34,795 nt of DNA, taken from NCBI GenBank assembly GCA_017465905.1, contig JAFTVE010000024.1:1-34795 (forward strand). The letters are read 5' to 3'. The position numbers and the translations under genes are program-made. The first letter of the stretch is position 1. Each line of letters opens with the position of its first letter. Positions 4,951 to 28,683 of this stretch are shown here, piece after piece. The stretch is from Bacteroidaceae bacterium. Its GTDB lineage: Bacteria > Bacteroidota > Bacteroidia > Bacteroidales > Bacteroidaceae. Under the pieces are notes generated by a model. It was not told the origin of the DNA and did no database searches. It worked only from the letters and a program-made list of their open reading frames with translations.

Positions 4951-5120
4951 TATCTTTATGGCAAACCATGAAGATACTCTCGCTCGTTGCAAAAAGTTCA
5001 AGTAAACTTGGCTTTTCACTCGCTTATGCGTATCTTTATGGTAAACCATGAAGATACTCTCGCTCGTTGCAAAAAGTTCAAGTAAACTTGGCTTTTCACT
5101 CGCTTATGCGTATCTTTGCA
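4951..5120 (+). repeat. 80-bp tandem duplication in the oxyR promoter region
   Basis: The block 4951-5030 is repeated at 5031-5110 with a single difference (C at 4962, T at 5042), and a third copy begins at 5111 with TATCTTTGCA before diverging. Each repeat starts with a -7-like box: TATCTTTA in the two full copies and a perfect TATCTTTG in the last. Inside each copy is an ATG followed by an open frame, which lengthens the apparent oxyR reading frame upstream. The near-identity implies a recent duplication. Confidence 0.95.
5088..5118 (+). promoter_or_regulatory. oxyR promoter
   Basis: TTG at 5088-5090, a 20-bp spacer, then TATCTTTG at 5111-5118: a close match to the Bacteroidales promoter consensus. 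It ends about 30 bp before the chosen oxyR start at 5150. This makes the longer reading frame from 5048, which would begin upstream of the promoter, unlikely to be the real protein start. Confidence 0.75.
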
Positions 5121-16649: not shown

Positions 16650-18407
16650 ATGAGTGTACACAAATCAACCCCCGACTATATAATAGAGGTTAGTTGGGAG
16701 GTGTGCAATAAGGTAGGTGGCATCTACACAGTGCTCTCGACAAGAGCAAAGACAATTTTGACGAAGACAGATGCCCAATTGATGTTTATAGGTCCCGACC
16801 TTTGGAAAGAAACGGCGAACCCGCTGTTCAAAGAAGATAAACGCTTGATGGCCGGATGGCGCAAGAAAGCAACTGAAGAAGGTCTCAATATACGTATAGG
16901 ACGGTGGATGATTCCCGGTGAGCCGGTAGCCGTACTTGTAGATTTTACTCCTTATTATAATATAAAGAACGATATCTATGCCGAGGCATGGAATCTCTTT
17001 AAGGTGGATTCACTGCACGCCTATGGCGACTACGATGAGGCCAGCATGTTCTCATACGCAGCAGCCAAGGTTGCCGAGAGCTACTACCGCAACGAGATTG
17101 TAAAGAAAGCTAAGACCAGCCAGGCAGACAATAATTGTCAATTGCCCAAGGTAATCTACCAGGCACACGAGTGGATGACAGGCCTCGGTGCCCTCTTCCT
17201 CAAGCATTGGATACCCTCTATCGCTACGATATTTACAACCCACGCTACTTCGATAGGCCGTTCTATCGCCGGCAACATGAAGCCTCTCTATGACTATATG
17301 GAAGGCTACAATGGCGACCAGATGGCCGATGAGCTCAATATGCAGTCGAAGCACTCGATCGAGAAGCAGGCTGCCCATCGTGTCGACTGCTTCACCACGG
17401 TAAGTGAGATTACCGACCGTGAGTGCGCACAGCTGCTCGAGAAGAAGGCCGATGTCATCACGGTCAACGGTTTCGAGGACGACTTCGTACCCAAGGGTGC
17501 AGCCTTCACTGCCAAGCGCAAGGAGGCCCGCAAGGTGATGTTGAACGTAGCCAGCAAGCTGCTCGGTCAGGAGTTTGCCGACGACACCATCATCGTATCT
17601 ACCGGCGGCCGCTACGAGTTCCGCAACAAGGGAATCGATATCCTGCTCGAGTCGCTCAATCGCCTCGCCCATGAGCCTTCGCTCGACCGCGACGTGCTGG
17701 CATTCATCAATGTGCCTGCATGGGTAAAAGGTCCACGTATGGACTTAGTTGAAAGATTACAGATGAAAGAGGAAAGTAATTGTCAATTGTCAATTGCCAA
17801 TTGTCCATTAGAAAACCCTGTCATCACCCACGAACTCTACAACATGGATGACGACAAGGCCCTCTCGATGATGCGTGCCATCGGGCTCAACAACGCTCCC
17901 GAGAGCCGTGTGAAGGTAATCTTCGTGCCCTGCTACCTCAATGGCGACGACGGCATTTTCAACCTTCCCTACTACGATCTGTTGCCTGGCGACGACTTAG
18001 CGGTATACCCCTCTTACTATGAGCCTTGGGGATACACTCCGCTCGAGAGCGTAGCCTTCCACGTACCCACCATCACCACCGACCTCGCAGGTTTTGGCCT
18101 TTGGGCAAATTCATTGCAGAAAGTGGAAAGTGGAAAGATGAAAGATGAAAGTGGCAACGGTGAAAATTCTCCATTGTCCATTGTCAATTCTCCATTGGAG
18201 AGTGGCGTGAAGGTGATACACCGCACCGACAGCAACTGGGACGAGGCAGCCAACGAAATCAAGAACAGTATCTTGGCCTTTACCAAGATGGACGCTAAGA
18301 TGGTGACTCAGCTTCGCCGTCGCGCAGCCGACATCTCCAAGAAGGCGTTGTGGGACAAGTTCGTAAAATATTACCTCGAAGCTTACGAGGTAGCATTAAG
18401 TAAATAA
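16650..18407 (+). CDS. Glycogen synthase, GT3 family, with three heptamer-repeat inserts
   Basis: Builds alpha-1,4-glucan from a nucleotide sugar in the cytosol. It has 585 residues. It opens with [23 protein letters not shown], the start of eukaryote-like GT3 synthases found in Bacteroidetes. Further motifs are [37 protein letters not shown] and the donor-site region [20 protein letters not shown]. Three segments do not look like the family: about 153-166 (with NNCQLP), 368-388 (with [14 protein letters not shown]) and 490-516 (with [26 protein letters not shown]). The DNA of all three has an exact or near 7-bp period, and they lie between conserved blocks, so they appear to be in-frame repeat insertions in surface loops. 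The frame is intact throughout. The phosphorylase gene follows 25 bp downstream. Confidence 0.93.
17105..17146 (+). repeat. Heptamer tract inside glycogen synthase, site 1 (degenerate)
   Basis: About six 7-bp units in register, starting purine-rich (GAAAGCT) and ending AATTGTC then AATTGCC. It encodes the stretch ending NNCQLP (about residues 153-166), just before the conserved YQAHEW block. The first units are degenerate, so the left edge is uncertain. Confidence 0.55.
17751..17813 (+). repeat. Heptamer tract inside glycogen synthase, site 2
   Basis: Nine consecutive 7-bp units in perfect register. Four are purine-rich or related (GAAAGAT, TACAGAT, GAAAGAG, GAAAGTA), followed by ATTGTCA, ATTGTCA, ATTGCCA, ATTGTCC and ATTAGAA. 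The tract is 63 bp, which is both nine heptamers and 21 codons, so it keeps the frame. Confidence 0.9.
18119..18195 (+). repeat. Heptamer tract inside glycogen synthase, site 3
   Basis: Eleven 7-bp units in register: GAAAGTG twice, GAAAGAT twice, GAAAGTG, GCAACGG and TGAAAAT, then TCTCCAT, TGTCCAT, TGTCAAT and TCTCCAT. The first half is purine-rich and the second half is of the TTGTC(C/A)A kind, the same two-part order as at site 2. The reading frame stays open. Confidence 0.9.
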
Positions 18408-18432
18408 TAACTTATTAACCATTATAACTCAT

Positions 18433-20985
18433 ATGAAGATTAAAGTTAGTAATGCAAATTCACCCGCATGGAAAGAGGTGAACGTAAAGTCGCACATCCC
18501 CGCTGAGCTTGCTTGCTTGAGCGAGATGGCGCGCAACATCTGGTGGTCTTGGACACCCGAGGCCCGCGACATGTTCAAGAGCTTGAACCCTACTCTCTGG
18601 AAAGAGTGCGGACAAAACCCCGTGCTGCTGCTTGAGCGTCTCAGCTACGAGACATTGGAAGAACTGGCTAAGGACGAAGCTGTACTTGCACGCATCAACA
18701 AGGTGTACAAGCAGTTCCGTGCATATATGGACGTTAAGCCCAATGCAGAGCGCCCCTCAGTGGCTTACTTCTGCATGGAGTATGGTCTCACACACGTGCT
18801 GCGCATCTACTCAGGTGGTCTGGGCGTGCTCGCCGGTGACTACTTGAAGGAGGCTTCTGACTCTAACGTCGACATGTGCGCTATCGGCTTCCTCTATCGC
18901 TATGGCTACTTCACACAGAGCCTCTCTATTGATGGTCAGCAGATTGCCAACTACGAGGCTTCAAATTTCGCCAACCTCCCCTTGGAGCGCGTGATGGACG
19001 AGAACGGCAAGCCCCTTGTGGTAGCTGTCCCCTACATCAACTATCAGGTATATGCATACGTATGGAAGGTACAGGTAGGTCGTGTACCCTTGTACCTCCT
19101 CGACACTGACAACGAGCTCAATTCTGAGTTCGACCGTCCTATCACCTTCCAGCTCTATGGTGGTGACTGGGAAAACCGCCTCAAGCAGGAGATCCTGCTC
19201 GGTATCGGTGGTATGCTCACCCTCAAGGCTATGGGTATCACCAAGGATGTATACCACTGCAACGAGGGTCACGCTGCACTCTGCAACCTCTATCGCTTGA
19301 CCGACTATGTAAAGCAGGGCCTCAGCTTCAACCAAGCTATGGAGCTCGTTCGCGCTTCAGGTCTCTACACCGTACACACCCCCGTACCTGCCGGCCACGA
19401 CTACTTCGACGAGGGCCTCTTTGGCAAGTACATGAGCGGCTATGCACAGCAGCTCGGCATCAGCTGGGATGAGCTCATGGATATGGGCCGCATCAATCCC
19501 GGTGACAAGGGCGAGCGTTTCTGCATGTCAACCTTCGCTTGCAACACCTGTCAGGAGGTTAACGGCGTAAGCTGGCTCCACGGCAAGGTATCACAGGATA
19601 TGTTCTCTGGCATCTGGAAGGGCTACTATCCCGAGGAGAACCACGTAGGTTACGTAACCAACGGCGTACACTTCCCCACATGGGTAGCTTCAGAGTGGAA
19701 GAACCTCTACACCAAGGTGTTCGACAAGACATTCCTTGGCGACCAGTCAAACGAGAAGATTTGGGAGGCTATCTACAACGTATCTGACGAGACCATCTGG
19801 GAGACCCGTCAGGGCTTGAAGAACAAGCTCATCGCATACATCCGCGAGGAGTTCCGCAGCAGCTGGTTGAAGAACCAGGGCGATCCCTCACGTGTAGTAT
19901 CACTGATGCAGAAGATCACCCCCAACGCACTGCTCATCGGTTTCGGACGTCGTTTCGCTACCTACAAGCGTGCGCACTTGCTCTTCACCGACCTCGACCG
20001 CTTGGCCAAGATCGTGAACAACCCCGACTACCCCGTACAGTTCCTCTTCACCGGTAAGGCTCACCCCCACGATGGTGCAGGTCAGGGTCTTATCAAGAAG
20101 ATTATCGAGATTTCACGTCGTCCCGAGTTCCTCGGCAAGATCATCTTCCTCGAGAACTACGACATGCAGCTCGCCCGTCGTCTCGTATCAGGCGTAGATA
20201 TTTGGTTGAACACACCTACCCGTCCTCTCGAGGCATCAGGTACATCAGGTGAGAAGGCTTTGATGAACGGTGTTGTAAACTTCTCTGTACTCGACGGTTG
20301 GTGGCTCGAGGGCTATCGTCCCGGTGCAGGTTGGGCACTCACTGAGAAGCGCACCTATCAGAATCAGGATTACCAGGATCAGCTCGACGCTGCTACCATC
20401 TACAGCATCCTCGAGAACGAGATCGTACCTCTCTACTACAACAAGAACGCCAAGGGCTACTCTGAGGGTTGGATTCAGGTAGTGAAGAACTCAATCGCAC
20501 AGATTGCACCTCACTACACCATGAAGCGTCAGCTCGACGACTACTACACCAAGTTCTACAACAAGCTCGGCAGCCGCTTCGCTGCACTCTCGGCCAACGA
20601 CAATGCCAAGGCTAAGGAGATCGCCGCTTGGAAGGAGACAGTAGCTGAGCGTTGGGATTCTATCGAGGTAGTATCAGCTACCAACGTAGCCGATATGGAG
20701 GTTGTCAGCGGTGACGATGTGAAGCTCACCGTAGTACTCGACGAGAAGGGTCTCGACGATGCAGTAGGCGTAGAGGTAGTAACTATCGAAACCGACATCG
20801 AAGGCAAGGAGCACATCCACACCATCGACACCATGAACCTCGTTAAGCGTGAGAACAACATCCACACCTTCGAGGGCACACATGAGGTGAACAATTCCGG
20901 TACTTTCAAGGTTGCCTATCGTATGTATCCCAAGAATGTAGACCTGCCTCACCGTCAGGACTTCTGCTACGTTCGTTGGTTCTAA
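18433..20985 (+). CDS. glgP: Alpha-glucan (glycogen) phosphorylase, GT35
   Basis: Releases glucose-1-phosphate from glycogen using pyridoxal phosphate in the cytosol. At 850 residues it is the short prokaryotic type. Residues about 15-120 form the DUF3417 N-terminal domain ([19 protein letters not shown]). The phosphorylase core contains [45 protein letters not shown] and [13 protein letters not shown]. The cofactor Lys is Lys608 in [14 protein letters not shown]; relatives usually have Met where this protein has Glu607. The C-terminal 110 residues are beta-rich ([24 protein letters not shown]). Codon choice is strongly uniform, which suggests high expression. It pairs with the synthase 25 bp upstream, so synthesis and breakdown of glycogen share one operon. 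A strong terminator follows. Confidence 0.95.
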
Positions 20986-21007
20986 TAGGGACAGTTACCA
21001 AGCTGTT

Positions 21008-21051
21008 ATAAAGAAGCAAGGCTGACCGTGTGGTCAGCCTTGCTTCTTTAT
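21008..21051. terminator. Bidirectional terminator between glgP and mfd
   Basis: A perfect 20-bp stem (left arm 21008-21027, right arm 21032-21051) with the 4-nt loop GTGT. An A-rich start and a T/A-rich end let it work on both strands. It ends 18 bp before the mfd stop codon and 23 bp after the glgP stop, so it serves both converging genes. Confidence 0.92.
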
Positions 21052-21068
21052 ATATATACGTCCAAGAG

Positions 21069-24000
21069 TTATCGTTGCATCGCGAACAGTACATTCAGTG
21101 CGGCCTCAACCGTCTCAATACCCTTGATGAGCAGACTACGCTTGCCCGACAGTTCACGAAAACGGCACTCATAGGGAGTCATCGCCGTATAGTTCATCAC
21201 ACGCCCGAAGGCAGCACTGTCATAGTAGGGACTCTCGAGGTTGCTCACGAAGTAGAGGGCCATCTGGCCCCCCTTGAGCAGGATTTTCTCGATGCCGAGC
21301 TGCTTGCCTATGCGGCGGAGCGGTACCACGCGGAGCAGCTCCTCGCCCATCGGGGGCACAGGACCAAAGCGGTCGGTGAGGCGTGTGCGGAACTTGGCCA
21401 CTTCCTCATCCGTCTCCAAGCTATCAAGCTCGCGGTACACGAGCATGCGCTCACTGCTGGTGGGGATATACTCATTGGGGAACAGCAGTTCGAGGTCGCT
21501 CTCCACGGCACACTCCTCCACGAACCCGTCACCGCTGATCTTCTCGCCTTCGGCCACGTCGCCCATGAGGAGGTCGGCAAACTCATTGGTCTTGAGTTCG
21601 TGCACCGCCTCGCCCAGAATCTTCTGATAGGTCTCGTAGCCGAGGTCGGCAATGAAGCCGCTCTGCTCGGCACCCAGCAGGTTACCTGCACCGCGGATGT
21701 CGAGGTCCTGCATGGCGATATGGATACCACTGCCCAGGTCGGTAAAGTTCTCGATGGCCTGCAATCGGCGGCGTGCCTCGGGGGTGAGCACTGAGAGTGG
21801 TGGGGCCAGCAGGTAGCAGAAGGCCTTCTTGTTGCCACGTCCCACGCGGCCTCGCATCTGGTGCAGGTCGCTCAGGCCGAAGTTGTGTGCCTGATTGATG
21901 ATGATGGTATTGGCATTGGGTATGTCGATGCCGTTCTCCACGATAGAGGTGGCTATGAGCACGTCGTAGTCGTGGTTCACGAAGCTCATGATGACCTTCT
22001 CCAGCTCCTCGGGCGGCATCTGTCCGTGCCCGATACACACACGGGCATCGGGTACATTGCGTGTGACGAGTGCCGCCAGCTCGGCAAGGTTCTGTATGCG
22101 GTTGTTGATGATGAAGAGCTGTCCGTTACGGCTGAGCTCAAAGTTCACCGCCTCGCGGATAATCTCCTCATTGAAGGTGTGCACCTCGGTCTGTATGGGA
22201 TAGCGGTTGGGCGGCGGAGTCTGTATGACGCTCAGGTCGCGTGCCCCCATGAGCGAGAACTGTAGGGTACGCGGTATAGGGGTGGCCGTGAGCGTGAGCG
22301 TATCTACGCTCACCTTCAGCTGGCGCAGCTTCTCCTTCACCGATACGCCAAACTTCTGCTCCTCATCGATGATGAGCAGACCCAGGTCCTTGAACTTCAC
22401 GCCCTTGCCTATGAGCTTGTGCGTGCCCACCACGATGTTCACCTCACCGCTCTTGAGTCCCTCGAGCACCCTCTTCGTGTCGGCAGCCGAGCGTGCACGG
22501 CTCAGGTACTCCACGCGGCAGGGGAAGTTTTTCAGTCGCTCCGAGAAGGTGCGCCAATGCTGGTAGGCCAGCACGGTGGTGGGCACCAGCACCGCCACCT
22601 GCTTATTGTCACATGCCGCCTTGAAGGCAGCACGCACGGCCACCTCGGTCTTGCCGAAGCCCACGTCGCCACACACGAGGCGGTCCATCGGGCGCTGCCG
22701 CTCCATGTCGGCCTTCACGTCGAGCGTAGCCTTCAGCTGGTCGGGCGTGTCTTCGTAGAGGAAGCTCGCCTCCAGCTCGTGCTGCATGAAGCTGTCGGGG
22801 CTATAGGCAAAGCCCTTCTCCTGCGCACGCTGCGAGTAGAGCTTGATGAGGTCGCGGGCGATATCCTTGATCTTGGTCTTGGTGCGCTCCTTGAGCTTCT
22901 CCCACGCGCCCGTTCCCAGCTTATTGATGCGCGGTGCCTCGCCCTCCTTGCTCTTGTACTTGGAAATCTTGTGCAACGAGTGGATCGACACGAACACCAC
23001 ATCATCGTTGCTGTATACGAGCTTGATCACCTCCTGCGTGCTGTTGCCGTTGGGCATGCGCACCAGTCCGGCAAAGCGGCCCACACCGTGGTCGATATGC
23101 ACCACGTAGTCGCCCGGTTCAAACTGGCTGAGTTCCTTGAGCGAGATGGCCATCTTGCCGCTACGCGCCTTGTCGCTGCGGAGGTTATACTTATGGAAAC
23201 GGTCGAATATCTGATGGTCGGTAAAGCAGGCCACGCGCATGGTGTTGTCGATGAATCCGCCATGAATGGTCTTGTCCACCGCCGTGAAGGGGATATTGCT
23301 GCCGCGCTCCTCGAAGATGGTTTTCAGGCGCTCGGCCTGCTTGGTGCTGTCGGTGAGAATATACACTTGGTAGCCTCGCTCTATGAGGTCGGTGAGCGAC
23401 TGCTCCACCAGTTCGAAGTTCTTGTGGAAAAGCGGTTGGGGCGAAGTGTCGAAGGTTACCGTAGCATGAACAGCCGATGATGCCTTTGCGCCGAACTCGA
23501 TGCGGCGGAAGTCTGTGTTCTTGCGCAGGAAGTCTGAAGGGTCTAATAATTGACAATTGACAATGGACAATTCACAATTATTACCATCCGGTTGATTTAT
23601 CATCGCGGAGCCAATTGTCAATTGTCCATTGTCAATTGTCAATTGTTCTATCCTCTCATGCGCCCAGAAGTAATCCTGAAACGCCAGCGCACTGCCCTTG
23701 GGCAGGAAGTCGAAGAAAGAGACCTCATCCCCTGCCCCACCCTCGAAGTTAGGCACGATGCTCACCTGCTGCACCTTGTCGCGCGAGAGCTGCGACTCAA
23801 TCTCAAACGTACGTATGCTGTCAATCTCATCCCCAAAGAGGTCGATACGGTAGGGATACTCCGACGCATAGGAAAACACGTCGATGATGCTACCACGCAC
23901 AGCAAACTGCCCCGGCTCATACACATAGTCCACCCGCTCAAAGCCCTCGCCCGCCAGCGCCGCCTCCATCTGAGGTATCTCCACCGTGTCGCCCACGGCA

Positions 24001-24551
24001 AGGCGCACCGATCGGTCGTTCAAGGTATCGCGCGACACCACCAGCTCGGCCAGGGCATCGGGGTAAGTGACAATATACAATGGACAATTGACAATGGACA
24101 ATTGACAATTATTTTCACCCATACTCGCAGCCTCTATCTGTCTCTTCGCGGAGCCAATTGTCAATTGTGAATTGTCAATTGTCAATTTACTCGCCTCGCT
24201 GAGGCGAGTAAGCACCTCCGTGCGCAGCACCTCGTTGGCCGAGTCCTTCTGTCCGTACTTGATGGCCCGCTTGTATGACGAGGGCAGAAAGAGTACCCGT
24301 CCCTCGCCCAGCACCTGTGTGAGGTCGTGGTAAAAGTAGCCCGCCTCCTCCAAGTCGTTCAGTACAAAGAGCGCCACAGGCACTCGCCACGGCTCATCGG
24401 CGAGGGCCAATGCGCCGAACAGCATAGGAGCGGCCGAAGCCGCAAGCCCCTTCAGATGTATCGTACCCACCGCCTCGTCATTCCATACATGCCGCATGGC
24501 ACTCACTCCCGAGTGCCCGGCAAAGCGTTTCACCAAGTCCTGTATTTCCAT
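21069..24551 (-). CDS. mfd: Transcription-repair coupling factor Mfd with two repeat inserts
   Basis: ATP-driven translocase that removes stalled RNA polymerase from damaged DNA and recruits UvrA. It has 1160 residues. The N-terminal UvrB-like region contains PGQFAVRGSIIDVFSY and PYRIDLFGDEIDSIR. The RNA-polymerase-interacting domain has PGDYVVHIDHGVGRFAGL. The translocase has GDVGFGKTEVAVRAA (Walker A), DEEQKFGV (motif II), TLTATPIPRTL, ATSIVENGIDIPNANT and HQMRGRVGRGNKKAFCYLL, and the C-terminal TRCF domain ends the protein. Residues 121-160 and 301-337 are foreign to the family. Each carries QLTIGSA then a variable stretch then NNC(Q/E)LSIVNC, encoded by paired inverted heptamer repeats, and both fall in the UvrB-like half where loops are likely tolerant. 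No disruption of the frame is seen, so the gene is probably functional. Confidence 0.95.
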   Translation of the reverse strand: MEIQDLVKRFAGHSGVSAMRHVWNDEAVGTIHLKGLAASAAPMLFGALALADEPWRVPVALFVLNDLEEAGYFYHDLTQVLGEGRVLFLPSSYKRAIKYGQKDSANEVLRTEVLTRLSEASKLTIDNSQLTIGSAKRQIEAASMGENNCQLSIVNCPLYIVTYPDALAELVVSRDTLNDRSVRLAVGDTVEIPQMEAALAGEGFERVDYVYEPGQFAVRGSIIDVFSYASEYPYRIDLFGDEIDSIRTFEIESQLSRDKVQQVSIVPNFEGGAGDEVSFFDFLPKGSALAFQDYFWAHERIEQLTIDNGQLTIGSAMINQPDGNNCELSIVNCQLLDPSDFLRKNTDFRRIEFGAKASSAVHATVTFDTSPQPLFHKNFELVEQSLTDLIERGYQVYILTDSTKQAERLKTIFEERGSNIPFTAVDKTIHGGFIDNTMRVACFTDHQIFDRFHKYNLRSDKARSGKMAISLKELSQFEPGDYVVHIDHGVGRFAGLVRMPNGNSTQEVIKLVYSNDDVVFVSIHSLHKISKYKSKEGEAPRINKLGTGAWEKLKERTKTKIKDIARDLIKLYSQRAQEKGFAYSPDSFMQHELEASFLYEDTPDQLKATLDVKADMERQRPMDRLVCGDVGFGKTEVAVRAAFKAACDNKQVAVLVPTTVLAYQHWRTFSERLKNFPCRVEYLSRARSAADTKRVLEGLKSGEVNIVVGTHKLIGKGVKFKDLGLLIIDEEQKFGVSVKEKLRQLKVSVDTLTLTATPIPRTLQFSLMGARDLSVIQTPPPNRYPIQTEVHTFNEEIIREAVNFELSRNGQLFIINNRIQNLAELAALVTRNVPDARVCIGHGQMPPEELEKVIMSFVNHDYDVLIATSIVENGIDIPNANTIIINQAHNFGLSDLHQMRGRVGRGNKKAFCYLLAPPLSVLTPEARRRLQAIENFTDLGSGIHIAMQDLDIRGAGNLLGAEQSGFIADLGYETYQKILGEAVHELKTNEFADLLMGDVAEGEKISGDGFVEECAVESDLELLFPNEYIPTSSERMLVYRELDSLETDEEVAKFRTRLTDRFGPVPPMGEELLRVVPLRRIGKQLGIEKILLKGGQMALYFVSNLESPYYDSAAFGRVMNYTAMTPYECRFRELSGKRSLLIKGIETVEAALNVLFAMQR
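23541..23651. repeat. Inverted heptamer element in mfd, copy B
   Basis: On the plus strand, four TGACAAT-type units (23551-23578: TGACAAT, TGACAAT, GGACAAT, TCACAAT) face five AATTGTC-type units (23613-23647) across a 34-bp centre. The edges of the centre are TATT on the left and CGCGGAGCC on the right. The two arms can pair to form a long hairpin. The whole block is translated in mfd as residues 301-337. Confidence 0.92.
24066..24211. repeat. Inverted heptamer element in mfd, copy A, with adjoining hairpin
   Basis: Six TGACAAT-type units (24068-24109) face AATTGTC-type units (24156-24190) across a 46-bp centre. The centre begins TATTTTC and ends CGCGGAGCC, like copy B. Directly beside the right arm, 24187-24211 is a perfect 11-bp stem (TTACTCGCCTC and its complement) with a GCT loop, also within mfd coding sequence (LTRLSEASK). 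The block corresponds to about residues 114-161. Confidence 0.92.
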
Positions 24552-24618
24552 ATCCTACATGCACTTTGGGCAGACAAGACCATTGTCCCATCTGCCAAGC
24601 CTTATAATTTCGACACTA

Positions 24619-24626
24619 CAAAGGTA
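24619..24626 (-). promoter_or_regulatory. Candidate mfd promoter -7 box
   Basis: TACCTTTG on the minus strand, about 70 bp before the mfd start. A TTG is present on the minus strand about 18 bp upstream (24645-24647). Confidence 0.55.
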
Positions 24627-24714
24627 GCACTATTTTTCAAACCACAAGTCAACCTCGCTTGATTTTATCAATCTTCTACTGAAGCTAAAGGTTTTTATTT
24701 CATGTTTAGCGAGA

Positions 24715-24745
24715 AAAACCTGCCAGGGAGGCCCTGGCAGGTTTT
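24715..24745. terminator. Strong hairpin with the CCTGCCAGGG stem
   Basis: A perfect 14-bp stem (AAAACCTGCCAGGG and its complement) with an AGG loop, flanked by A and T runs. It lies in the 356-bp gap between mfd and the VapE-like gene and could end leftward transcription coming from that gene, or act as a repeat. The outer eleven pairs of the stem are the same as in the hairpin at 28652-28683. The rest of the gap, 24746-24895, shows nothing recognisable apart from a partial CTGGCAG followed by a T-run near 24881. Confidence 0.75.
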
Positions 24746-24895
24746 GTATTTTTGTTCATCGGAGATCACACCCACAACCAACATTTCAAACTCATTATGA
24801 GAATATTACAAGACTACATCTGTACAAAAACACACCACGAAAATCGTTCATTGCGCCCTATGCAATTACATGTTTGCCGCCTGGCAGTTTTTTTT

Positions 24896-24930
24896 AATTG
24901 ACAATTGTCAATTTGCGCGTAGCGCAAAAT
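24896..24930. repeat. Heptamer palindrome carrying the VapE stop codon, with small hairpin
   Basis: The palindrome AATTGACAATTGTCAATT (24896-24913) is one TGACAAT-type and one AATTGTC-type heptamer back to back. It is followed by the mini-hairpin TTTGCGC-GTA-GCGCAAA. The minus-strand TGA inside the palindrome (24908-24910) is the stop codon of the VapE-like gene, and the hairpin encodes its last residues. Confidence 0.85.
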
Positions 24931-26332
24931 ACCTCTTATTCTCGCGGCGCACCTGCTCAAATCCCATGCGACGGACATACATGCCGAAGGTGGTGCGCTC
25001 CACGCTCCGCATCAGCAGCGGGTCTATGCGGTGCAGGTAGTCATACACCGCCACCGCACTCCACAGCTCATCATCGGCGTAGTGCTTCTTCTTCGTCACG
25101 GGACTGAAGTGCTGCGTCAGCAGCTCCTCGGGGCCATGCTCCATCTTATAGGGTGCGTTGTGCTCCTCCAGGCGTAGCGTCTCCTCCTCGTCGAGCCAGT
25201 AGCGCATGCCCTCGTCGAGCAGGTGCAGCGCCTGCGCATAGAGCTGGGCGTGGTCGACGGGCGTGTCCACATCGATGGGTGCCGACAGCTCCACACAGAT
25301 GTAGCGGCGGCTTCCCGTGCGGTCGCGCAGCAGCATGCGGCGGTTGCTGGTGCCGATGAACGAAGCCATCCGCGGCATCTCCTCGAACTGGGCACGATGC
25401 GGGCGCTTCACCTTGATGTCCGCCAGCTGCAGCAGCCCCTTCAGCGTGGCATGTGCCGTGGCCGAGTGACGGTCAAACTCGTCGAGGTTCACCAGTAGGT
25501 GCTGCGCCATCTTGCGCAGGCACTGCTCCTCCTGCGCCAGATTGAACGTGTCGGTATAGTGCACCATCAGCTCGGGCGGCATCAGCAGTTTGGTAAACTG
25601 GCTCTTCCCCCACCCCTGCCGCTCGCTGATGAGCAGCGGACACAGGCAGTTGCCATACCGTCCCATGCGCCCCAAGGCCTGGGCCACCACCGCCACCATC
25701 CAGCGGCGCAGCAGCGTGAGGGCAAACTCATCGCCCGTCACCCTCCGCATGAGGTTGCCGATATGGTCCTCGCCGTCCCACTCGGGCAAGCAAGCGAAGT
25801 AGTCCGTCACGGGATTGTACCGCGTTGCCCGCCCACAGTCCACTATCGCCTGTATGTGACTGATGTACGGCACGTTGATGCCCGCATGCTGTAACTGCAT
25901 CAGCAGGTAGCGGCGCTGCTCGTCGTCCAAAGGACGAAAACAGCGGCCTCTCCCCCCGCCCTCTCCCGAAGAGAGGGAGCTTACAGGCATCGCGGAGACC
26001 TCCCTATATTCATAGCCCCTCGCCAGCACATTGTACCGAAACTCATACCGCTCCCACAAGTAGCGCTCGGCCCTCACGAGTAGCGTCTCTCCATTTGAGT
26101 TGGGAGATTCACCGTCATCGTTACTACGACGCCTTTCGACCTTCGAAATTCGAACGTCGTTCACCTCTGCCCCCTCATCCGTTGCCACCTGCGACTTGTC
26201 ATCTTGGGCGGCGCGAAAGATCTCGCCGTCCACCTTGCCATTCATACTCGAGAACAATTCTCTTTTCACACGCTTGGCAACGCGCTGCATCCAGCCGCGC
26301 AACTGCCCTACATAAACATAGATTTTCTTCAT
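24908..26332 (-). CDS. VapE-like P-loop ATPase (virulence-associated E family)
   Basis: A 474-residue protein resembling the VapE/VirE family of mobile-element primase-helicase-like proteins. The core runs from about residue 135. It includes YNPVTDYFACLPEWDGEDHIGNLMRR, the Walker A motif ERQGWGKSQFTKLL (Lys243, Ser244), the Walker B motif LLVNLDEFDRHS (Asp284, Glu285), a sensor-like FIGTSNRRMLLRDRTGSRRYI (Asn and Arg finger candidates) and a C-terminal winged-helix-like part ending YFALRAN. No primase active site is visible, so it may be only the helicase-like half. Residues about 34-47 and 113-131 derive from two interspersed repeat families inserted in frame, and the stop codon lies in a third. 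It diverges from the HU-like gene across the 22-bp repeats, a pairing I associate with Bacteroidetes genomic islands. Function in this genome is unknown. Confidence 0.82.
   Translation of the reverse strand: MKKIYVYVGQLRGWMQRVAKRVKRELFSSMNGKVDGEIFRAAQDDKSQVATDEGAEVNDVRISKVERRRSNDDGESPNSNGETLLVRAERYLWERYEFRYNVLARGYEYREVSAMPVSSLSSGEGGGRGRCFRPLDDEQRRYLLMQLQHAGINVPYISHIQAIVDCGRATRYNPVTDYFACLPEWDGEDHIGNLMRRVTGDEFALTLLRRWMVAVVAQALGRMGRYGNCLCPLLISERQGWGKSQFTKLLMPPELMVHYTDTFNLAQEEQCLRKMAQHLLVNLDEFDRHSATAHATLKGLLQLADIKVKRPHRAQFEEMPRMASFIGTSNRRMLLRDRTGSRRYICVELSAPIDVDTPVDHAQLYAQALHLLDEGMRYWLDEEETLRLEEHNAPYKMEHGPEELLTQHFSPVTKKKHYADDELWSAVAVYDYLHRIDPLLMRSVERTTFGMYVRRMGFEQVRRENKRYFALRAN
25942..25996. repeat. 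C-rich interspersed repeat, copy 2, inside the VapE gene
   Basis: A C-rich block with inverted repeat CCCTCTC...GAGAGGG followed by GGCATCGCGGA, matching the block after the permease at 2404-2453. On the coding strand it reads AMPVSSLSSGEGGGRGR in frame, a low-complexity segment placed between YEYREV and FRPLDDEQ. Confidence 0.75.
26198..26228. repeat. GTCATCTTG-type interspersed repeat inside the VapE gene
   Basis: The plus strand reads GTCATCTTGGGCGGCGCG, then AAAGATCTCG. A related copy, GTCATCCCGACAAAGCGAAG with GGGATCTCG, lies 165 bp away at 26394-26430 outside the gene. On the VapE strand it is translated as EIFRAAQDDKS in frame. Confidence 0.7.
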
Positions 26333-26342
26333 AATATATATT

Positions 26343-26391
26343 GTTTAGAGTTTTGTGCTTAGTGCTTAGTGTTTAATGTTTAGAGTTTGGT
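26343..26391. repeat. Heptamer tract of GTTTAGA/GCTTAGT units
   Basis: Seven 7-bp units in exact register: GTTTAGA, GTTTTGT, GCTTAGT, GCTTAGT, GTTTAAT, GTTTAGA and GTTTGGT. It begins 10 bp upstream of the VapE start codon, so this gene has a heptamer tract at both its ends. Confidence 0.9.
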
Positions 26392-26393
26392 GT

Positions 26394-26701: not shown

Positions 26702-26722
26702 TTCTAAGGTTTCATTTTTCGC

Positions 26723-26804
26723 TACCTTCGCGAAGATAAACCACTATCTTCGCGAGGATAGTCCGATACCTCCGCGAAGGTACTGCACTATCTTCGCGAA
26801 GGTA
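26723..26804. promoter_or_regulatory. Array of four 22-bp palindromic repeats (operator or iteron)
   Basis: Four copies of a 16-bp palindrome near TACCTTCGCGAAGGTA begin at 26723, 26745, 26767 and 26789, exactly 22 bp apart, or about two helical turns. Units 1, 2 and 4 carry one or two substitutions, and unit 3 has one. Related half-sites (CCGCGAAGATACG near 26468 and TTCCGCGAAGTTAC near 26592) lie farther upstream. The position between promoter and start codon suggests autoregulation by the HU-like protein. Replication iterons are an alternative, given the VapE-like gene next door. Confidence 0.9.
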
Positions 26805-26842
26805 GTCAGCAGAGGAACCTATGAAACAGAAAAAACAGACCT

Positions 26843-28497: not shown

Positions 28498-28616
28498 ACC
28501 TGCCACCCGGCAAAAAAGTAATTCCGTATAACCGCCCGAGCACCCGAATCCTATCATACGTTCGTCCCCGTGGCGAATGTAAGGCGCTCGTTATTAGAAG
28601 AAAAAAGCGAAAACTT

Positions 28617-28651
28617 AATTTTCAATTCTTCATTCTCAATTTTCAATTCTT
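28617..28651. repeat. Heptamer tract of AATTTTC/AATTCTT units
   Basis: Five 7-bp units in register: AATTTTC, AATTCTT, CATTCTC, AATTTTC and AATTCTT. It directly abuts the hairpin at 28652. With the hexamer tract, it fills the 353-bp gap between the PIN gene and the next gene; the rest of that gap (28498-28616) shows no clear feature. Confidence 0.85.
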
Positions 28652-28683
28652 AAAAACCTGCCAAGTCCCCCTGGCAGGTTTTT
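28652..28683. terminator. Hairpin with the CCTGCCA stem, second copy
   Basis: A perfect 12-bp stem (AAAAACCTGCCA and its complement) with an 8-nt C-rich loop and a T-run. Eleven stem pairs are shared with the hairpin at 24715-24745. It can terminate rightward transcription from the PIN operon. It may also be a repeat flanking the VapE/HU/PIN segment. Confidence 0.8.

Follow-up and report, generated by a model that had tools for sequence, protein, structure and literature searches.

Two blocks of inverted 7-bp repeats lie inside the DNA repair gene mfd of a Bacteroidaceae bacterium (GenBank assembly GCA_017465905.1, contig JAFTVE010000024.1; the whole stretch analysed, 34,795 nt, is here called the window), raising the question of what such blocks are and how they came to be read as part of a conserved protein. 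An initial annotation had proposed a small mobile hairpin that enters coding sequence without breaking the frame. Hairpins of this kind prove to be dispersed in the genus: a single element recurs in unrelated genes, inserts occupy genes in frame, fixed sites are filled, empty or exchanged between genomes, and the arms covary. Together, these observations probably reflect a family of in-frame hairpins whose copies persist in insert-tolerant loops and spread by template-switch copying.

Two heptamer hairpins within Mfd

The host gene of both blocks is an open reading frame (ORF) of 1160 aa on the minus strand (21069..24551), which matches Mfd structures in the PDB and has Mfd counterparts in 61 of 61 genomes searched. 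Both blocks were recovered as hairpins with complementary arms and strong folds, and their in-frame translation within the Mfd ORF was borne out. Each consists of a heptamer arm, a short centre and a complementary heptamer arm, together spanning 100 to 113 bp. The element at Mfd site 2 (23547..23646, minus strand, 100 bp) shows TGACAAT units at 23548..23579 and ATTGTCA units at 23612..23646 when read on the plus strand. Its 42-nt arms are 88% complementary (23538-23579 with 23613-23654), and as a single strand it folds at -50.4 kcal/mol (z -9.94), better than 200/200 shuffles. The element at site 1 (24076..24188, minus strand, 113 bp, reading KLTIDNSQLTIGSAKRQIEAASMGENNCQLSIVNCPL) likewise has plus-strand TGACAAT units at 24068..24110 and ATTGTCA units at 24155..24187; here, 32-nt arms are 91% complementary (24079-24110 with 24156-24187) and the single-strand fold of -37.9 kcal/mol (z -3.72) again beats all 200 shuffles.

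The shared design first described for the two blocks holds for the TGACAAT arms and for CGCGGAGCC, which is common to both centres (at 23604 and 24147), but as a mark CGCGGAGCC singles out no copies in this genome beyond the two in mfd. The centre motif GGCTCCGCG occupies 23604..23612 and 24147..24155 (minus strand), and the core CCGGATGGTAATAATT, kept in most of 16 aligned copies, adjoins the arm of the site-2 element (23576..23591, minus strand). We rejected GGCTCCGCG as a stand-alone family marker: AATTGGCTCCGCG, with up to two mismatches, gave 57 matches in the own genome against 35 for the reversed control, and is exact there only at the two mfd copies. Similarly, CGCGGAGCCAATTG with up to three mismatches occurred 3 times in the window versus 3.25 expected, no excess over chance. 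Allowing up to two mismatches, TGACAATTGACAAT occurred 29 times in the window (both strands, a few of them outside mfd), with 0.29 expected and a maximum of 2 in dinucleotide shuffles.

In a predicted structure of Mfd residues 1-420, the predicted local distance difference test score (pLDDT) averaged 86.3, and 10-residue means were 66, 54 and 47 over residues 121-150 and 57 and 50 over 311-330. Such low values over the inserts would fit tolerated loops.

Empty, filled and exchanged mfd sites in the genus

We compared 19 genomes of this uncultured genus, numbered here with G000 as the window's own. The close relative G001, whose Mfd is 96-98% identical, is without both elements, so the segments are not carried by all relatives. 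At site 1, 84 nt separate the anchors in G001 versus 186 in the window; at site 2, G001 has the native sequence NEEGFSQQAVQAMDEATDCVLH, much like that of numerous further Bacteroidales, and the window carries 30 different residues in its stead. For site 2, the description of the elements as inserted needs amending: the element takes the place of about 22 native linker residues rather than lying beside them. G014 also has the native site 2, together with a short array at site 1.

Other relatives use the same mfd sites for different elements. GAAAATT hairpins are found there in G002, G004, G008, G013 and G018, GC-rich palindromes in G002, G004 and G007, an octamer hairpin at site 2 in G003 and G016, and nested elements in G013, while the segments of G005, G009, G012 and G015 are shorter and show no obvious hairpin of this type. 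Both anchors were required in one frame in this comparison, so that divisibility by three is no test there; at site 2, the anchors could not be placed in G007, G012 or G017 and were misplaced in G013, which was read instead from locus L071, on the same contig (C76). Site 2 of L071 holds a further kind of insert, CHPEQREGSQ...ILHFVQNDT, nested inside a heptamer hairpin. The GC-rich palindrome is itself dispersed in 13 of the 19 genomes, with most matches in G007 (43), G002 (42) and G004 (24), and a copy of this kind, CACCCCTCCTTGGGAGGGG, lies at 2419-2437 of the window. Heptamers differ between species, as illustrated by the TGACAAT/GAAAATK match counts of G000 (155/50), G003 (2/81), G008 (7/79) and G005 (0/1).

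A dispersed family of in-frame hairpins

Copies are by no means confined to mfd. With two mismatches allowed, RACAATTGACAATNGACAATT had 155 matches in the own genome, overlapping ones included, and none for the reversed-pattern control, with arrays in frame in other genes. The TGACAAT arms highlighted in the initial annotation are thus a genome-wide feature; most TGACAAT sites, however, are single arrays and not hairpins, the arm sequence is species-specific, and unrelated kinds use the same sites. Forty stretches, which cover most of 100 listed places among the 155 matches (C49:98231, for instance, was left out), yielded 48 array sites, and the window added four. In this set of 52, inverted pairs count once and several short or lone arrays are omitted, the window accounting for three of these (17132-17154, 24889-24918 and 28617-28654). 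By our reading of the ORF table, on which the classes rest, 22/52 sites are in frame inside long ORFs and the remainder are intergenic, at gene ends or ambiguous. Array-bearing ORFs above the NCBIfam curated cut-off are ilvD, topB, glutamate synthase-like, alpha-L-rhamnosidase, uvrB and argS; malQ and a U32-peptidase-like ORF fall below it, and a single ORF matched no family. At five loci of this genome (L031, L033, L045, L051 and L070), the heptamer arrays have next to them a longer dispersed repeat, CAAGATTCCTTGCTGGCTCGGCA or a near variant of it.

In coding orientation, perfectly repeated TGACAAT would present an in-frame TGA every 21 nt. At the frame-critical phase of the in-frame set, 0/15 units start with TGA (TCA 11, GGA 2, GCA 1, GAA 1), compared to 27/41 units at other phases and 49/79 in arrays taken as intergenic, a deficit partly forced by choosing open ORFs. 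Downstream of the arrays, the conserved protein resumes in mfd, argS, uvrB and others. With TGA absent at just those positions that would be translated as a stop, frame keeping looks like a selection filter.

Whole hairpins recur in unrelated genes. In G004, one 113-bp hairpin is present in both mfd and a gene for an RND pump (104/113 identical, no gaps), and a second composite element is common to the malQ gene in G013 and the rhamnosidase gene in G001 (76/80). An alignment of 16 copies, drawn from seven genes, is organised about a CCGGATGGCAATAATT-like core, in which the variable centre usually ends, and 17 located copies measure 81-114 bp, with arms that vary in sequence and length. A covariance model built from the 16 copies was searched against three sets of loci; the mfd elements, both training copies, scored 100.2 bits (site 2) and 91.3 bits (site 1), and full hairpins were found at 10 places at E <= 1.1e-5 in the stretches of the own genome searched. 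We examined 36 hand-picked matches (best strand, E <= 1.4e-5, repeats of one place dropped), which include the training copies: 29/36 lie in frame inside ORFs, as do 13 of the 20 non-training copies. Where the core is present in in-frame matches, it is read in one direction only, as PDGNN or a variant. The plain arm-gap-arm pattern was rejected, as many of its matches (21 per strand vs 1) are not heptamer hairpins. CCGGAKGGCAATAATT gave mostly 0-9 matches per genome in 17/19 genomes of the genus, some of which were not re-found or were out of frame.

The arms of these elements change together. In the 16-copy alignment, 84.0% of arm cells pair versus 79.9% after shuffling and at most 52.4% in slid versions, and 10 pairs changed on both sides versus 4.5; 0/500 shuffles were as high on all five measures. 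Arms also fit their own partners better than swapped ones (mean 18.3 vs 15.6; 18/14400 permutations as high), in a test where two G013 rows contain nested elements.

Exchange at fixed sites extends well beyond mfd. In eight more genes of four relatives, conserved flanks surround unrelated, altered or missing inserts. The argS insert is nearly identical in G001 and the own genome, likewise the ilvD insert in G013 and the own genome, and the ilvD site is empty or native in G018. All 35 measured intervals, with the right anchor free in any frame, are stop-free multiples of three; they come from 40 gene-genome pairs, leaving out ilvD, gcvPB and the rhamnosidase gene for G008, and the rhamnosidase gene alone for G013 and G018. 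Two G018 matches in the initial comparison had a stop, presumably because one runs to the uvrB terminus and the other lies ahead of the gcvPB start; the later measured intervals had none. The RND pump gene, for which a partial ORF matches CusA/CzcA best in NCBIfam though under the cut-off, behaves alike in the 11/19 genomes with a close orthologue: the site is empty in G006, G007, G011 and G018, holds a GAAAATT hairpin in G004, G013 and G014, and has four other inserts in G000, G001, G002 and G010, with 11/11 intervals being multiples of three without a stop. Segment skipping or splicing was set aside because frame and stop absence hold in all 46/46 measured intervals. By eye, the RND-gene insert of the own genome (L251) looks to be of the same kind as the non-heptamer insert of L071, read from the other strand. 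In G001 (L253), the insert has arms resembling hexamer repeats (AACGAT) on either side of CATCGCGGAGCC, which is the centre motif of mfd in opposite orientation; different arms and centres thus apparently combine. Genes affected include several of DNA repair, topology and nucleotide pools, namely mfd, uvrB, mutS2, topB and mazG.

Across the order, the TGACAAT pattern occurs in 66/198 genomes, mostly with few matches and with >100 in three (G000, G116 and G140); the reversed control is also high in a few genomes, e.g., G046 and G088. Among 80 Bacteroidales mfd loci, only one of which (L071) is from this genus, 45/101 tandem arrays have period 7, 14 or 21, compared to 1/5 after block-of-three shuffling. 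Twenty-six such arrays lie in the mfd ORFs, falling by eye into groups at residues 107-155 (10), 308-362 (6), 416-419 (3), 988-1008 (5) and elsewhere (2), and their heptamers differ. Matches of the hairpin model in genomes beyond the genus were all weaker, numbering 17 at E <= 1 (best 6.6e-6).

The window itself holds two further in-frame repeats, both on the plus strand of ORF 16650-18407, which we take to be glycogen synthase (no NCBIfam family at E <= 1e-20): a single heptamer array at 17773..17814, and a diverged hairpin at 18107..18197 that matches the model at 39.1 bits (E 1.1e-5) in an open frame.

Proposed template switching and competing explanations

How might such hairpins spread? 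Dispersal, frame and the sharing of one hairpin by two unrelated genes bear out part of the proposed small mobile element; mobility as an enzymatic process, and how copies are made, are inferred. We favour short-range copying during replication, in which template switching between dispersed repeats would spread and swap copies, quasipalindrome correction would keep the arms complementary, and 7-nt slippage would lengthen them, probably at no gain to the host. Template switching is our first choice because the arms are chimeric and covarying, there are no fixed ends, and no target duplication is visible by eye. In described cases, switching between inverted-repeat arms makes the arms alike and alters coding sequence (passages of PMC8604942; see also PMC7202029 and PMC8794818), which would explain covarying arms; the inverted repeats in those passages are already in place, however, and are not whole hairpins spreading to new genes. 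More tentatively, the hairpins may be modular coding units with arms under constant rewriting into the heptamer dialect of the species, with fixed loops of housekeeping proteins acting as shared docking sites for unrelated, interchanging kinds and a copying activity that has a 7-nt step.

Several points weigh against template switching or against the family as such. No copying event or enzyme was seen, and repeated rounds of insertion and deletion could also account for exchange and for chimeric arms. With AGTCAATTGTATAT still present, site 1 of G001 may be a deletion scar, and the native site 2 common to G001 and G014 makes local recombination possible; the genomes compared are drafts, many of them incomplete. 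Seven of the 36 model matches have no open frame or too little surrounding ORF, and the hairpin at 18107-18197 folds no better than shuffles (z -1.15, 25/200 as good). As for covariation, related sequences can exceed shuffles without structure, the signal would in part follow from heptamer dialects peculiar to single genomes, and not all own arm pairs outscore all swapped ones.

The rival we take most seriously, although we think it improbable, is non-autonomous transposition, with a transposase, recombinase or reverse transcriptase moving hairpins as units, as supposed for miniature inverted-repeat transposable elements (MITEs), and arm and centre differences arising later. It would readily account for whole hairpins at unrelated genes (mfd and RND pump; malQ and rhamnosidase), for a conserved core read in one direction, and for empty sites in mfd and the RND gene. 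Yet fixed ends of the MITE type are missing, arms of different kind mix within one element, and a by-eye look at the mfd and RND sites showed no target-site duplication. Nor does the one mover family tested, the Y1 domain of the RAYT transposases, track the arrays: it is present in 7/19 genomes of the genus and absent from the element-rich G002, G004 and G017 (incomplete drafts), and we rejected RAYT as the mover.

Less probable still is that nothing moves, tolerant loops simply collecting 7-nt slippage repeats that local template switching turns into inverted arms site by site. Throughout Bacteroidales, the same Mfd loops do repeatedly hold arrays of many different heptamers, period 7 dominates, and most arrays of the own genome are single; for single arrays, this explanation may still hold. 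For full hairpins it is contradicted, as 113-bp and 80-bp elements in unrelated genes with a shared core are impossible from independent local events. We give very little credence to hairpins kept for a function, such as mRNA structure or a protein-altering peptide: strong folds, covarying arms and the several repair genes affected speak for it, but close relatives with conserved flanks lack the elements, have them replaced or swap them for unrelated ones, and the inserts are predicted as low-confidence loops. Draft genomes and repeats finally invite suspicion of an assembly artefact of metagenome bins, which we nearly dismiss given separate genomes, intact frames and different inserts at the same sites.

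Relation to known repeats, and other repeats in the window

To our knowledge, in-frame palindromic elements have been described chiefly from Rickettsiales. We found no report of in-frame heptamer hairpins in Bacteroidales, as the initial annotation had supposed, and no match to TGACAATTGACAATTGACAAT, in the literature searched, with most subscription journals outside it. A changing set of elements in a Bacteroidaceae genus, in genes for DNA repair (mfd, uvrB, mutS2, topB), translation (argS) and metabolism, at sites that are empty, filled or swapped among close relatives, makes the origin and spread of protein-coding palindromes directly testable. It is also a warning that some peptides in predicted proteins come from repeat DNA.

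The suggested likeness to Rickettsia palindromic elements (RPE) extends to behaviour, while host and build differ. In passages of PMC2229807, RPE are hairpin repeats that measure 105-146 bp and contain open reading frames, lying in frame within conserved protein genes as well as in intergenic DNA; Wolbachia palindromic elements are named in a reference title of the same paper. Our elements resemble RPE, as described there, in lying in frame in conserved genes and in size, though at 81-114 bp they are somewhat shorter; they differ in their Bacteroidaceae host, in arms of tandem heptamers that vary by species, and in sharing sites with unrelated kinds.

Heptamer direct repeats such as TAACTGA, according to passages of PMC4679880, occur patchily at many loci in Cyanobacteria, Beggiatoaceae and some Bacteroidetes, mostly intergenic and direct, although the main genome has a single indirect repeat, and a two-repeat set lies within purC of Flexibacter litoralis. 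They share with our arrays the 7-bp tandem unit at many dispersed loci; in-frame hairpins at shared sites are absent from those passages. REP elements with RAYT, in the portions of PMC3733652 consulted, are small dispersed palindromes, some in ORFs and many within replication and genome repair genes. The repair-type hosts here are reminiscent of this, but our copies lack a general GTAG or CGTC tag (letters anywhere, either strand: 2/16 and 3/16 copies) and do not follow the Y1 domain. The ORF-bearing RU elements of enterobacteria (fixed units, 103-168 bp long, with coding potential fused into proteins; passages of PMC2759123) and PARCELs (tandem 25-residue protein repeats whose DNA has dyad symmetry; passages of PMC2996958) likewise contribute coding sequence to proteins. 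In contrast to these fixed units and tandem protein repeats, the present hairpins have variable heptamer arms. Rfam gave no match in window positions 17000-25500, which does not settle the sequence relationship to RPE.

The window contains additional repeats of other kinds. An 80-bp unit in two tandem copies (4951-5117, 98% match) overlaps the start of an ORF at 5048, presumably LysR-like. More heptamer arrays, with other sequences (TGTTTAG and AATTTTC), lie at 26342-26393 and 28614-28654, and a tandem repeat of 22/44 bp at 26722-26807 includes TTCGCGAA.

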